From Alphaproteobacteria bacterium (GTDB lineage: Bacteria > Pseudomonadota > Alphaproteobacteria > UBA7887): a DNA stretch of 64,000 nucleotides. The position numbers were made by a program, and so were the translations under genes. How positions within the stretch are numbered: position 1 is the first letter of the stretch; every line of letters begins with the position of its first letter. The notes under the pieces are model-generated. The model made no database searches, was not told the origin of the DNA, and saw only the letters and a program-made list of their open reading frames with translations. Location: contig JASLYQ010000017.1 in the NCBI GenBank assembly GCA_030739735.1, positions 1 through 64,000 of the forward strand, written 5' to 3'. This document shows, one piece after another, positions 30,871-36,489 of this stretch.

Positions 30871-32178
30871 TCACGACCCGTCGTCGTCGCGGCGCGGTGA
30901 CGTTGGCGCGCGCACGGTTATCCGCGGCCCCACCCGCTCCGTTGGGGCATCGGCCCGCAGCGCGGGCTGGGGCGGGGGTGTCGCTGCCAGGCCGGTAGCA
31001 GCAGATGGCGTAGGTGGCGGCGGGGTCTCACCAGCTGGGGACTGGTCTCTGGCCATCGCAGCAGCGATAGTGCGCGCCAACAACTTGATCTCGCTGCGCA
31101 GCTCATTGGCGAGCTGCTGGCGCCCATTGATGGCCTCCTCCAACAGGCGTGTCACGTAGACGTCGAGATTGCGGATATGGTCGCGAGAAGCTTCGTCGAA
31201 TCCGCTGTCCTGACCAGTAGACTCTGCGATCCGCTGCAAGACCGGCCTGATGTCAGATTGACCCTCGACCAGCTTGACCATAAGATTCTGCTCAGAGCGC
31301 ATTTGGTCGGTCAGGGTGGCAAGTTTCTCGGTCAGCTGCAGAATGTTCGAGTTAGCCGCGCGCCTGTCCTCCTCACCGCGAGAAAGCGTGCGTTGCAGTT
31401 CCTCCAGCGAGTCTGCGGTTTGCTCAAGAAGCGCCTGCACATAGACCGGCATCGACTGATCACCCTCGCCGACAGCGCCGCCGCTGCCCAGCCGCGTAAC
31501 ACTTGACAGCCATTCTTCTAGGTCGTTGTAGAACTGGTTCTGCGCCTGACCCGACTGGAGATCGAGAAAGCCGAGCACCAACGAGCCGGCAAGGCCGAAC
31601 AGCGAGGACGAAAATGCCGTCCCCATGCCACGCAAAGGCGCGTCGAGTCCCTGCTTCAAGGCGGCAAAGGTAGCGACGATATCCTCGTCCGCTATGGCCA
31701 GGCTTTGGATCACCGAGCCAACCGAGCCGACGGTATCCAACAGGCCCCAAAAGGTGCCGAGCAGACCGAGAAAAACTAGCAAGCCGATCATGTAGCGCGT
31801 TATGTCGCGCGATTCGTCGAGCCGCGCGCCGATGCTGTCGAGCATCGAGCGCATCGCCATCGTCGACAGCATCATTTTGCCCTTGCGATCCGACAGCATC
31901 TTGGCCATCGGCGCTAGTAGGTTCGGCGGCGCCTGTGAGGTCGAAGTGGCCTTGCTGTCGGCGCGGAAGGTCTCGATCCAGCGTGCTTCGGGGCGGAGGC
32001 TCAACACCTGACGGAAACTGTGGCCGATGCCGATCAGCAAGACGCCAAGGATGAGGCCGTTGAGCGGCGGGTTGGCCGTAAAGGCCCCGAGCAATTGCTC
32101 GAGCAGGACGAACACCACCGCCACGGAAAGCAGCAGAAACGCGATCATGCGGACGAGAAAACGGCGGGAACTATTCAT
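30871..32178 (-). CDS. MotA/TolQ/ExbB-like proton channel protein
   Basis: The 435-residue protein has two N-terminal helices (about 9-30 and 39-57), and a MotA/ExbB core with LVFLGLLGTFWGLLDTVGSV, LKQGLDAPLRGMGTAFSSSL and LFGLAGSLVLGFLDLQSGQA. After about 230 it becomes a long coiled coil with a Pro-rich C-terminal tail. With the MotB/OmpA partner it should form a 5:2-type ion-driven motor. No flagellar genes are nearby, so a role in envelope work is likelier than motility. Confidence 0.9.
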   Translation of the reverse strand: MNSSRRFLVRMIAFLLLSVAVVFVLLEQLLGAFTANPPLNGLILGVLLIGIGHSFRQVLSLRPEARWIETFRADSKATSTSQAPPNLLAPMAKMLSDRKGKMMLSTMAMRSMLDSIGARLDESRDITRYMIGLLVFLGLLGTFWGLLDTVGSVGSVIQSLAIADEDIVATFAALKQGLDAPLRGMGTAFSSSLFGLAGSLVLGFLDLQSGQAQNQFYNDLEEWLSSVTRLGSGGAVGEGDQSMPVYVQALLEQTADSLEELQRTLSRGEEDRRAANSNILQLTEKLATLTDQMRSEQNLMVKLVEGQSDIRPVLQRIAESTGQDSGFDEASRDHIRNLDVYVTRLLEEAINGRQQLANELRSEIKLLARTIAAAMARDQSPAGETPPPPTPSAATGLAATPPPQPALRADAPTERVGPRITVRAPTSPRRDDDGS

Positions 32179-32258: not shown

Positions 32259-33329
32259 TCATCGCACAGTAATGACATCGACCCGGTCAGGCGGACCGCT
32301 TTCATACTTTGCCCCGAGGGCACGAACATCGATGCGCGTCGAATTGACGCCAGTATGGATGAGGAAGGAGCGGACCGCCAAGGCGCGCGACAGCGACAGA
32401 CGCCGTGCCGCGCTGGCAACACTGTGCTCGGCACTGGCATAGGCCTTGAGCTGCAATCGCAGTGCTTCGTTCACCGTCAGGCTGGCGGCTAACTCGCGCA
32501 AGGGACCCTCGGCCTCAGGTGAGAGTTCGGCGCCGCCAGGCACAAACGGGATCAGCAACGCCACCCCGGAGCCCGGGAGGGGCGCCACCGCAGCAACAGC
32601 GGTCTCAGGTGCTGCAGCCCGCCCCGGTCCGGCAACAGGACCTGGAGCCGAGGCAGGCTCAGCTGCTGGCTCGGGCGTGGTATCTGGCACGGATGGCAGC
32701 GCTGGCACGGTCTCCGAGGCCTCCTCGGCCGTCGCGGTCGGTGAAATCTCCGGCGCCTCAACCTCGCTACGGGCTATATCGACGACAGGTGGCGGGGCTT
32801 CCGGCGCAGATGGCACCGTGACCACCGACGACCGCTCTGGCGCTGGCATTGGATCCGGCAGCGGCTGCACCGTGACCACTGGCGACACTTCACGGTCCAG
32901 TGGGGTCGGCGTCGTTGTTTCGATCGTTGAGGGCCGGCGCAGTACAATTGGCGCGGGCGATGACAAGATCGCGGGGACACGCCCACCATCAGGCACCAAG
33001 CCGATCAAGCGTGAGCGCAGCGGCCCCAAGGCCGGATCGTAGAGCGGTAGCCCATCGGAGCCGATGCCCTGACCGAACCCGCCGGCACGGTATGGCGAGC
33101 CCCGCTGCACATCAAAAATATTGGTCTCATTGACCTCCGCTGCCGGGCCACCACCGCCTACTATGACGGTCTCCTGGGCAGATACCGCACCAGCAAACGC
33201 ATACAATATAGCCGCGAGGAACACCCCGCGCAGTCCCGACGCCATCGCTCTCATGCCGGACACGGCCAAGCCCTCGAACCCGAGCGGCCGCCAAGCGACC
33301 GCCGCCACAGACAGTCTCCTGGGAATCAT
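32259..33329 (-). CDS. OmpA-domain protein with Pro/Ala-rich linker
   Basis: The chosen start at 33329 (MIPRRLSVAAVAWRPLGF) gives 356 residues; ATGs at 33254 and 33245 would make a neater signal peptide (MRAMASGLRGVFLAAILYAF, then AGAVSAQE). The mature protein has a long Pro/Ala/Glu-rich linker from about 100 to 240 and a C-terminal OmpA domain (IPFVPGGAELSPEAEGPLRE, LQLKAYASAEHSV, LSLSRALAVRSFL, IDVRALG). It lacks the N-terminal MotB helix. It is probably the periplasmic or outer-membrane partner of the preceding pair. Confidence 0.82.
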   Translation of the reverse strand: MIPRRLSVAAVAWRPLGFEGLAVSGMRAMASGLRGVFLAAILYAFAGAVSAQETVIVGGGGPAAEVNETNIFDVQRGSPYRAGGFGQGIGSDGLPLYDPALGPLRSRLIGLVPDGGRVPAILSSPAPIVLRRPSTIETTTPTPLDREVSPVVTVQPLPDPMPAPERSSVVTVPSAPEAPPPVVDIARSEVEAPEISPTATAEEASETVPALPSVPDTTPEPAAEPASAPGPVAGPGRAAAPETAVAAVAPLPGSGVALLIPFVPGGAELSPEAEGPLRELAASLTVNEALRLQLKAYASAEHSVASAARRLSLSRALAVRSFLIHTGVNSTRIDVRALGAKYESGPPDRVDVITVR

Positions 33330-33357
33330 AGCCCGAGAAGCTGGGTCGAACAACCGC

Positions 33358-34140
33358 TTATGGTGTAGCAGGTGGCTGTGCCACCTGCGAGAGAATCGCA
33401 GCGAGATCGCGACCGATAAAACCATTGCCAGCCACCATGGCCCCGGTGGTCGGCGAAACTGCTTCCACCAAGCCGCCGGCTTCCCGCACTATAAGCTCGC
33501 CGACCGCGGCCACCACGGGGGCAACACCAGCACCCCAGAAGCCATCGAAACGGCCGCAAGACACGGCAGCCAGGTCAAGCGCCGAGCAACCCGTCTGGCG
33601 AGTCAGAGCGCCCTTAGCTGCTAGGGTGCTCAACCAAGCCGCGTGCACGGCAGTATCGCCGGACGGTGGTGCCAGCGCGACCAGCGCTTTAGCCACGGCG
33701 CCATGAGCAGAAACGCGCATGCGCTGGTGATTAGCGTAGGCACCGATGCCGTCCTCGGCCCAATGCAGAATATCGCGCAACGGGTCGTAGATGGCGCCAG
33801 CCACGATGCGCCCTTCCTCGCGCAGGCCGATGACGATGGCGAACCAGGGCAGGCCGCGGCCGAAATTACGCAGGCCCGCAACCGGAGCTAACAACCAGGC
33901 TGGCTCACCAACATCGCCAAGCGCCATATCGCCGCGGATCACGCGATGGCCGCGTCGCACCCGGGTAAGCTCGCGCAGTAGGCCGTCCTCGGCCCGCGAT
34001 AAGGCAGCTGCAGCAAACTTACTCGGTCCTTTGGGGCTTGATTGTAGTGATTCGATCTCACCGAAGTCGCGATTGAGGCCGCGCGCAACCTTGACCACGG
34101 CCCCGGCAATGACGTTGACGACCGCCGAGCGCTGAGCCAT
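33358..34140 (-). CDS. Inositol monophosphatase-family protein that lacks its metal-binding motifs
   Basis: Fold, length (260) and location beside efp match SuhB-type inositol monophosphatases: FGRGLPWFAIVIGL, GAIYDPLRDILHWAEDGIGA and CGRFDGFW are conserved. The catalytic signatures are gone. The family DPLDGT motif reads APVAGL at 85-90, the WDxAAG motif reads APVVAAVG at 207-214, and the Glu-Glu and Asp ligands near 40-70 are replaced. The frame is intact. It is therefore probably a non-enzymatic relative that keeps a structural or RNA-related role, unless it is an early pseudogene. Confidence 0.85.
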   Translation of the reverse strand: MAQRSAVVNVIAGAVVKVARGLNRDFGEIESLQSSPKGPSKFAAAALSRAEDGLLRELTRVRRGHRVIRGDMALGDVGEPAWLLAPVAGLRNFGRGLPWFAIVIGLREEGRIVAGAIYDPLRDILHWAEDGIGAYANHQRMRVSAHGAVAKALVALAPPSGDTAVHAAWLSTLAAKGALTRQTGCSALDLAAVSCGRFDGFWGAGVAPVVAAVGELIVREAGGLVEAVSPTTGAMVAGNGFIGRDLAAILSQVAQPPATP

Positions 34141-34146
34141 CCGCGG

Positions 34147-34713
34147 CTAGTCCTTGGCCCGCTCGGCGTAAGTCGCTTCGGCGATATTGACGACGATGCG
34201 CGCGCCTACCTCAATATGGGGCGGCACCATGACGCGCTCACCGTTCTCCAGCAACGCCGGCTTGAAGCTTGAGGCCGCGGTCTGCCCTTTCACCACGGGC
34301 TCGGTCTCACTGACGGTTATGGTCACGGTATCGGGCAGCACGACACCGATAGGTTGACCCTCAAACATCTCCACGGTCAGCTCCATGCCTTCCTGCAGGA
34401 AAGGCAAGCCGACTTCGATCAGGCCCGTCTCGATCATGATCTGTTCATAGGTCTCGCCATCCATCAGCGTGAGCAGCTCACCGTCGGCATAGAGATACTG
34501 ATACGGCTTCTGTTCGAGATAGGCGCGCTCCACGGTCTCGGCGGCGCGGAAGCGCTCGTTCAGCTTGGTGCCGTCGCGCAGATTTTTCATCTCGACCTGA
34601 TTGTAGGCACCGCCCTTGCCGGGCTGGGTTGCCTGGGTGCGCGCAACGCGCCAGAGAGCGCCTTTGTGCTCCAACACCATACCGGGACGCACGGCATTGC
34701 CGTTGATTTTCAT
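34147..34713 (-). CDS. efp: Translation elongation factor P
   Basis: EF-P rescues ribosomes at polyproline motifs. The 188-residue protein has three beta domains. The loop QPGKGGA contains the Lys34 site that may be modified, within [20 protein letters not shown]. Other features are the [20 protein letters not shown] start of domain II and [18 protein letters not shown]. The gene has a normal length. It is 7 bp before the SuhB-like gene. An AGGG-type sequence lies upstream of the ATG at 34713. Confidence 0.96.
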
Positions 34714-35224
34714 TATTCGCTCGGAGGGTATGAGAGGATATTAGGAACCGGAGCAGACCCTACCAGCATGCCCCGGAGGAGGCAATGGCGAGCCGGTCGG
34801 GACAAGGAAAGTCAATGGGGAAATTTGCGTAATACCGACCTTTCTCTTGGATACCGCCATACTCACTCACGTTGCGAGCGTGATCTCGCCAATCGGCTTC
34901 ACCGTGCGCGATCAGCTGCTGCTGCACCGCCTGATCGCCATCAACGCCGGCGGTAAAATCGGCGTCTCGACAAAACCCGATGGCTCTTTCTCATCGACGA
35001 TCGGTCCGCACCACTGATGGATGAAGATTCTCTTAGCTATGGGCGAACGTGTCGAACCGGCAGTGGCGGAAGGGAGTCGCTCGAGGCCGCGCTGGCGGCC
35101 AAGGTAACGGCGGACTTCGACACCCGCTGGACTAACGGTCTGGCTTCTTCATCAACAAGAACGATCTGGTAACGACGATTTATATGAAGGGCGCCTCGAT
35201 AAATCCCATTGTCTGGGCCTACTG
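34714..35224. other. Intergenic region between efp and the IS5 element
   Basis: About 510 bp without an assignable gene. A frame running roughly 34788-35016 on the plus strand ends IGVSTKPDGSFSSTIGPHH and reads like the C-terminal tail of a protein I cannot name. A 15-codon ORF at 34785 sits behind a strong GGAGGAGG but is unlikely to matter. Nothing else is recognised up to the IS edge at about 35225. Confidence 0.4.
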
Positions 35225-36335
35225 GGGTAGAATCCGGGGGACTTAACGCGGAAGTGGGGCGGCGGCCATGGGCCAGATGGGTTTTTCGACATTGCTAAGC
35301 GGTACGCGGGCCTTGACGCCAAGAACGATCCGCTGGCGAGGATCGACGAGGTTGTTGCGTGGGACGTCTTCCGGCCCCGGCTGGAGGCGGCTTGGCGCAA
35401 GCCGCCCGAGCAACGCAAATCGAAGGCTGGTCGCAAGCCGTGGGACGTGGTGGTGATGTTCAAGGCTATCGTGCTTTGCGAGCTTTACAACCTGTCGGAC
35501 GAACAGGTCGAGTTCCAGCTTCGTGATCGCCTTTCCTTCGTGCGGTTCTTGGGCTTGGGGCTTGAGGACCCGGTTCCGGATGCCACGACGGTGTGGGTCT
35601 ACCGGGATCTGCTAGCGCAAGCAGGTCTGGTGGAGCCCCTGTTCGACGAGTTCGATGGCTTTTTGAAGGAGCGGGGTTGGTTGGCGATGGGCGGCCAGAT
35701 CATCGACGCCTCGATCGTGCCGGTTCCGAGGCAGCGCAACCGGCGTGACGAGAACACGACGATCAAGGAGGGCAAGACGCCCGAGGACTGGGAGAAGCAG
35801 CCGGCCAAGCGTTCCCAGAAAGACACCGACGCGCGTTGGACCAAGAAGCACGGCAAGAGCTATTTCGGCTACAAGAACCACGTGAGCGTGGACCGCCGGC
35901 ACAAGCTGGTGCGGCGCTACCATGTAACGGACGCGGCGGTGCACGACAGCCAGGTCCTGGACGAAATCCTGGATGGGGACAACACGTCGTCTGAGGTTTG
36001 GGCGGACAGCGCCTATCGGTCGGCGGAGATCGAGGCGAAGCTGAAGGGGAAGGGGCTGAAGAGCCGGATCCACCGCAAGGGCCGCCGCAACAAGCCGCTG
36101 AACGAGCGGGAGAAGCTGGGCAACAAGACCCGCTCGAAGGTGCGGGCGCGGGTCGAGCACGTGTTCGGCGCCCAAAGCAACGACATGGGTGGGCCGCTGG
36201 TGCGGGCCATCGGGCTGACACGGGCCAACGCGCGCATCGGCCTGAAGAATCTTGCCTACAACATGCGCCGTCTGGTGGTGTTGGAGCGCCTCGCGGCGGC
36301 GCCGACATGACGGAGTTCAGGGGAGGAGTCTGCCC
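35225..36335 (+). mobile_element. IS5-family insertion sequence, transposase frame disrupted
   Basis: The element is bounded by imperfect 11-bp inverted repeats: GGGTAGAATCC at 35225-35235 and GGAGTCTGCCC at 36325-36335 (9 of 11 match in inverted comparison). It encodes one transposase whose N-terminus is in another frame. I could not find a clean target-site duplication, so the exact ends are approximate. It lies between efp and ubiT. Confidence 0.7.
35268..36310 (+). pseudogene. IS5-family transposase, split by a one-base deficit in a T run
   Basis: The ATG at 35268 reads MGQMGF and then fails, while FFDIAKRYAGLDAKNDPLAR continues in the -1 frame from 35282, followed by the long frame from 35447 (MVVMFKAIVLCELYNLSDEQ). 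Joining them needs a -1 shift at T5 (35282-35286); a T6 would restore the frame. DDE residues are present in IIDASIV, WADSAYRS and RARVEHVFG. The break is either a loss-of-function indel or a programmed shift. The C-terminal part from 35447 is intact (287 residues). Confidence 0.85.
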
Positions 36336-36489
36336 GAAATACGCGCTTTGGCATCAAATCAACCACTCAAGAGCAAGCGCAGGCCAGCACCCCCAAGGCA
36401 CGATGACGTCCGTCACCTCATCTGGCCCTCTGGCGAGCATTTATCGAGGCGCCCTGAAGCTTAGCGGCAATGGCTGACGCTGGTCTGGC
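36336..36489. other. Intergenic stretch before the ubiTUV regulatory site
   Basis: About 150 bp between the IS5 right end and the FNR-type box. I see no gene and no clear secondary structure. It may include the upstream promoter elements of ubiT. Confidence 0.4.

Follow-up and report, generated by a model that had tools for sequence, protein, structure and literature searches.

The window analysed here, a 64,000-nucleotide stretch of an alphaproteobacterial genome (assembly GCA_030739735.1, contig JASLYQ010000017.1, positions 1 to 64,000), carries at 33358..34140 on the minus strand a gene for a 260-residue protein of the IMPase fold, a putative pseudo-SuhB recognized from its open reading frame, PF00459 match, AF2 model, Foldseek matches, and a motif survey. 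Its frame, already described as intact when the sequence alone was read, runs from ATG to stop over 260 codons with zero internal stops. Directly upstream, across a gap of 6 bp, lies efp (elongation factor P; 34147..34713), and downstream follow genes for an OmpA-like protein (32259..33425) and for a MotA/TolQ/ExbB-like protein (30871..32178, named from the Pfam match of a sister copy), all on the minus strand. These three are conserved neighbours, and in the sister genomes, where the stretches were read, efp is followed by pseudo-SuhB and then by the OmpA-like and MotA-like genes. Read from its first ATG, the OmpA-like frame overlaps the final 68 bases of pseudo-SuhB (33358-33425), and its start probably lies further downstream. 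The sisters have thiE upstream of efp; in the window this place is taken, about 475 bp before efp starts, by an IS element (35188-36455) whose 17-bp terminal inverted repeats match perfectly (35188-35204 and 36439-36455) and which encodes a DDE-type transposase (35447-36310; DUF772 and DDE_Tnp_1).

The protein matches the PF00459 (Inositol_P) profile with an E-value of 1.8e-27 over profile positions 11-242 of 271, scoring 97 bits against a gathering score of 27 bits, and NCBIfam inositol-1-monophosphatase models reach 100 bits against a cut-off of 332; a family-level PF00459 match would still give it a phosphatase label. The AF2 model (input of 42 sequences) has a pLDDT of 90.7 and a pTM of 0.90, and Foldseek with this predicted model returned SuhB structures at TM 0.8-0.9, including 6ib8, the SuhB-NusA AR2 complex, and 6tqn, the rrn antitermination complex. 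The three-dimensional IMPase fold is predicted to be retained. Moreover, the alphaproteobacterial SuhB motif RDFGE is kept in the first helix (residues 24-28; 34057..34071, minus strand) and is prevalent in both intact and pseudo alphaproteobacterial SuhB rows. Having both same-strand efp adjacency and RDFGE, the features by which the efp-linked alphaproteobacterial SuhB group is delimited, the window protein is, as judged from its sequence, a member of PF00459 and of this group that stands outside the active IMPases.

For motif reading, the window protein was aligned with more than 40 relatives and numbered after E. coli SuhB, where D44, E67, D84, D87, T89, and D212 are the established metal-binding and nucleophile-activating residues of the IMPase family. 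All six are replaced in the window protein, which reads LGAALV vs DEDDTD. On the minus strand, residue 47 (E. coli D44), the invariant D of the (S/T)xxD stretch, has become L (34000..34002); the invariant EE at residues 70-71 (E. coli E67 and E68) has become GD (33928..33933); DPLDGT at residues 85-90 (E. coli D84, D87, and T89) has become APVAGL (33871..33888); and WD at residues 209-210 (E. coli W211 and D212) has become VV (33511..33516), so that PWD reads PVV at 208-210. The sequence-only reading had claimed the loss of every catalytic metal motif, on the basis of APVAGL and of APVVAAVG in the WDxAAG region; the alignment bears out both replacements and the general claim, and adds the EE to GD and D44 to L changes, which had been omitted. 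Intact being defined as all six catalytic residues present, none of these columns varies among the 168 intact alphaproteobacterial SuhBs (100% invariance), and departures occur in only 44 of 212 loci. We infer that metal-ion binding and phosphomonoester hydrolysis have been lost in the window protein. The idea that a duplicated SuhB gene makes up for the loss was considered and rejected, as no second close copy was seen and the other three PF00459 proteins are different, intact members of the superfamily.

The loss is a property of the whole order to which the window genome belongs, represented here by nine genomes of one family. The gene is present in eight of them, and none of the eight copies has most of the catalytic site, the states being LGAALV (window), VQADLV, FANCRD, FTNSRD (twice), FANCKD, and FPDSKE (twice) vs DEDDTD; in the ninth (G003, completeness 86%) the gene was not detected. 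This comparison with efp-adjacent orthologs of related genomes, proposed earlier as a check, rules out a strain-private or recent loss, and the suggestion of a recent loss of function has to be abandoned, given that the site is missing in every gene-bearing sister and that the dN/dS values reported below are low. On the efp tree, which is independent of the SuhB data, the eight genomes form one starred group (95*), which makes a single ancestral loss followed by further erosion the simplest history; SuhB would then have become a pseudoenzyme in the ancestor of the order.

Similar losses are scattered across the Alphaproteobacteria. In a survey of one SuhB locus per genome, covering 212 genomes and 137 GTDB families, 168 loci were fully intact at the six positions, and at least three of the six residues were lost in 37 (17%, not an unbiased rate, since low-scoring genomes were favoured for inspection, and with residue calls that depend on the alignment in the most divergent rows). 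These 37 loci fall into 20 families (f1, f9, f22, f30, f48, f59, f68, f69, f90, f95, f103, f107, f108, f109, f129, f130, f132, f144, f149, and f150), and 30 of them have efp on the same strand within the fetched stretch. Among evenly drawn alphaproteobacterial genomes, at least 31 of 289 carry a pseudo copy, a lower bound. Four families (f30, f35, f68, and f108) hold intact and damaged SuhBs side by side. Parsimony gave at least nine state changes on the SuhB tree built with the catalytic columns removed (three forced by starred branches); for the efp tree the minimum is 13 (five forced). These numbers of independent losses are approximate because both trees are quick ones with long branches. 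In the control set of other Pseudomonadota, 38 of 40 loci were intact; one exception, in a 1.1-Mb genome of family f178 (G397), has lost most of the site. Two further observations concern the course of erosion. One otherwise intact SuhB (L186, G261) shows the single catalytic change D87N, either a sequencing error or possibly an early step of loss, and two members of f103 (L303 and L256, in G215 and G110) retain very different remains, VESVTE and LENDTN, which may be useful for dating erosion.

Family f178 provides a parallel case. Some of its SuhBs are nearly letter-for-letter identical to the E. coli sequence, and because of this closeness we take f178 to be the Enterobacteriaceae, its many members of 0.2-1.6 Mb presumably being insect endosymbionts. 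Of the 392 members sampled, 375 have a SuhB match, and the 17 that lack one are mostly genomes of 0.2-0.5 Mb. The site was intact in all 30 large-genome members that were read. Another 50 members, with genomes that are small or degenerate (0.4-3.3 Mb; each from a different genus and picked for having a SuhB match), had lost at least one residue in 49 cases: one copy was intact (G480), one had a single change (D44A, G504), and 48 had more changes. The frame was open in 49 of the 50, one homologous frame (G517) containing an internal stop. The sole fully intact site among the 50 (L443, G480) belongs to a 2.0-Mb genome, possibly an early-stage case.

Small AT-rich genomes drift, so that the catalytic positions have to be weighed against other invariant residues. 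Among the 48 small-genome SuhBs of f178 with more than one change, catalytic positions are retained in 13-27% (D87 in 60%) and other invariant positions in 58%, with means of 0.26 vs 0.58 (Mann-Whitney p 0.004), and Y59, W81, N91, P97, Y117, F125, N136, L190, Y194, and E222 are retained in all 48. K251 and L254 are retained in 65% and 69% of the small-genome set, only slightly above the average invariant residue. In alphaproteobacterial pseudo-SuhBs, the mean is 0.17 for the catalytic columns vs 0.76 for other invariant positions (same test, p 0.0003); the pseudo sets are defined by catalytic changes, so that these contrasts are partly built in, but neither their size nor the 100% retention of other residues is. 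RDFGE is among the most conserved features that remain, with D25 retained at 0.92 and E28 at 0.97. The catalytic columns collapse selectively, with the fold residues, RDFGE, and, in the small-genome set, K251 and L254 being kept better.

Several studies bear on what such a protein may do. In E. coli, SuhB acts as a Nus factor, and IMPase-defective suhB mutants do not show the growth defect (PMC4807359); its K251 and L254 are contact residues for NusA-AR2 (PMC6614801). Furthermore, suhB is listed as an ancestrally essential gene in Enterobacteriaceae (PMC11481867) and was removed from a Buchnera metabolic model as unconnected to biomass (PMC2649895). In this context, we consider it rather probable that the efp-linked SuhB of the window is a pseudoenzyme whose retained role is non-catalytic, probably the one that SuhB plays in E. 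coli as a Nus factor. That it is a pseudoenzyme is well supported, and the mechanism, from loss of activity and dimer to NusA binding and rRNA role, is inferred. In the most economical account, the need for the phosphatase would have vanished, leaving a Nus-type factor stripped of a dispensable enzyme activity, whose folded, probably dimeric body could act in binding protein or RNA, dock on the AR2 domain of NusA, and help to form an rRNA antitermination and processing complex that serves the assembly of ribosomes, in the way E. coli SuhB works with no need for its phosphatase activity. A role in RNA work together with NusA is plausible and agrees with the parallel losses found in the probable family of E. 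coli.

The AR2 region is present in NusA of the window genome (L159; HHH_5 at 446-499), which aligns with E. coli NusA through the AR2 end. We rejected NusA-AR2 as a discriminating test, however, since the C-terminal AR region also occurs in genomes without detectable SuhB. Inspected by eye, alphaproteobacterial SuhBs, both intact and pseudo, offer no clear equivalent of K251 and L254, the C-terminal helix being too divergent, so that the docking surface known from E. coli may not apply to them; the conservation of RDFGE hints at a contact that is absent from E. coli. The strongest rival starts from here: the protein could have another non-catalytic function, as a scaffold, an RNA chaperone, or a partner of EF-P or of the envelope proteins of the operon, without relying on NusA-AR2. 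This would account for the tight efp linkage and for best-kept features that include the alphaproteobacteria-specific RDFGE rather than the mapped E. coli AR2 surface. The E. coli-like family, for which a role of SuhB in the Nus complex is known, nevertheless shows the same selective loss, which argues for one shared role, and we regard this other function as unlikely while still giving it a substantial share of our doubt.

Distinctly improbable is a remodelling of the site to suit another chemistry or another ligand, as in a neofunctionalized enzyme or a phosphate sensor. The larger f1 subclade does have consistent replacements, NPI(S/C)G(R/K) and SDCASG, so that the pocket may remain under some constraint there, but the lineages differ from one another (LGAALV, VQADLV, FTNSRD, FPDSKE, and others), as expected of eroded rather than rebuilt sites.

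A pseudogene in slow neutral decay, its frame open by chance, would be in keeping with the faster protein evolution of these copies relative to intact SuhBs and with the interrupted frame of G517. In our own GY94 maximum-likelihood estimates, made pairwise between sisters, pseudo-SuhB gave an omega of 0.143 (G001/G005), 0.258 (G006/G007), and 0.118, 0.130, and 0.104 in other sister pairs, with 2*deltaLnL of 35-147 against omega = 1; efp in the same pairs gave 0.03-0.24. Pseudo-SuhB in these pairs is under purifying selection, weaker than that on efp, and neutral decay is rejected for them, the value near 1 that the sequence-only reading had named as its mark not being seen. Estimates for f103 and f22 were saturated and left out, and since omega covers sister pairs and the window lineage has no close relative to pair with, the latter was judged by its branches: its SuhB terminal branch measures 1.58 vs a median of 0.59 and its efp branch 0.19 vs 0.33, which, with the open frame and kept fold residues, indicates a constraint that is relaxed yet present. 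The eight frames of the order are open even though their products share 35-48% identity with the window protein, as are nearly all small-genome copies of f178, and we hold decay to be very improbable. The earlier proposal of selection for a non-enzymatic role gains support from this purifying selection and from the many parallel losses.

A sequencing or assembly artefact, conceivable in a single draft of 69 contigs, can practically be dismissed, as the same losses recur in independent assemblies, including the genome AG-404-I19, one of the eight, and the three PF00459 paralogues of the window assembly all read DEDDTD, so that neither a general assembly fault nor a general loss of IMPase chemistry is the cause (paralogues of the sister genomes are likewise intact, apart from two truncated rows and a distant hit in G004 that reads DEDDSS).

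Pseudo-SuhB, as read from these sequences, is real, conserved, and recurrent. With its retention as a Nus-type factor as the preferred reading, a broader claim seems to us about evenly balanced, namely that across Pseudomonadota the selected, essential function of SuhB is non-enzymatic, and that lineages with no further need of its phosphatase have repeatedly and independently converted it to a pseudoenzyme Nus or ribosome-assembly factor, almost every small-genome relative of E. coli among them, with alphaproteobacteria acting via an RDFGE-containing surface. Until now, mutants of E. coli were the basis for judging whether the conserved phosphatase site matters to the Nus-factor job. Dozens of natural SuhBs that lack the site and are kept under selection give an evolutionary answer to this question and point to the surfaces that count. 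They also suggest that, in many draft and symbiont genomes, proteins with an inositol monophosphatase annotation are not enzymes. We found no description of a SuhB pseudoenzyme in the open-access literature, which misses most subscription journals, so that this absence counts for little.

Among known systems, the IMPase-type phosphatases HisN and CysQ share the PF00459 superfamily with the window protein at the level of weak matches, and both are catalytic. Mycobacterium tuberculosis SuhB, an IMPase (PDB 2Q74), has the same fold; its dimerization is reported to be Mg2+-induced (PMC2080633), and on that account a metal-free pseudo-SuhB would need to dimerize independently of Mg2+. The closest solved structure is Bartonella henselae SuhB (PDB 3LUZ/3LV0; phmmer E 4.7e-41, Foldseek rank 1), whose DPLDGTTNF-type motif is intact in the alignment, unlike that of the window protein. 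E. coli SuhB (PDB 6IB7, 6IB8, and 6TQN) has the same fold as well (Foldseek E 4e-20 to 6ib8; sequence match 4e-27), but it still has IMPase activity and every one of the catalytic residues, whereas the window protein keeps none of these residues, and it carries a KNYE-like sequence where the window protein has RDFGE.
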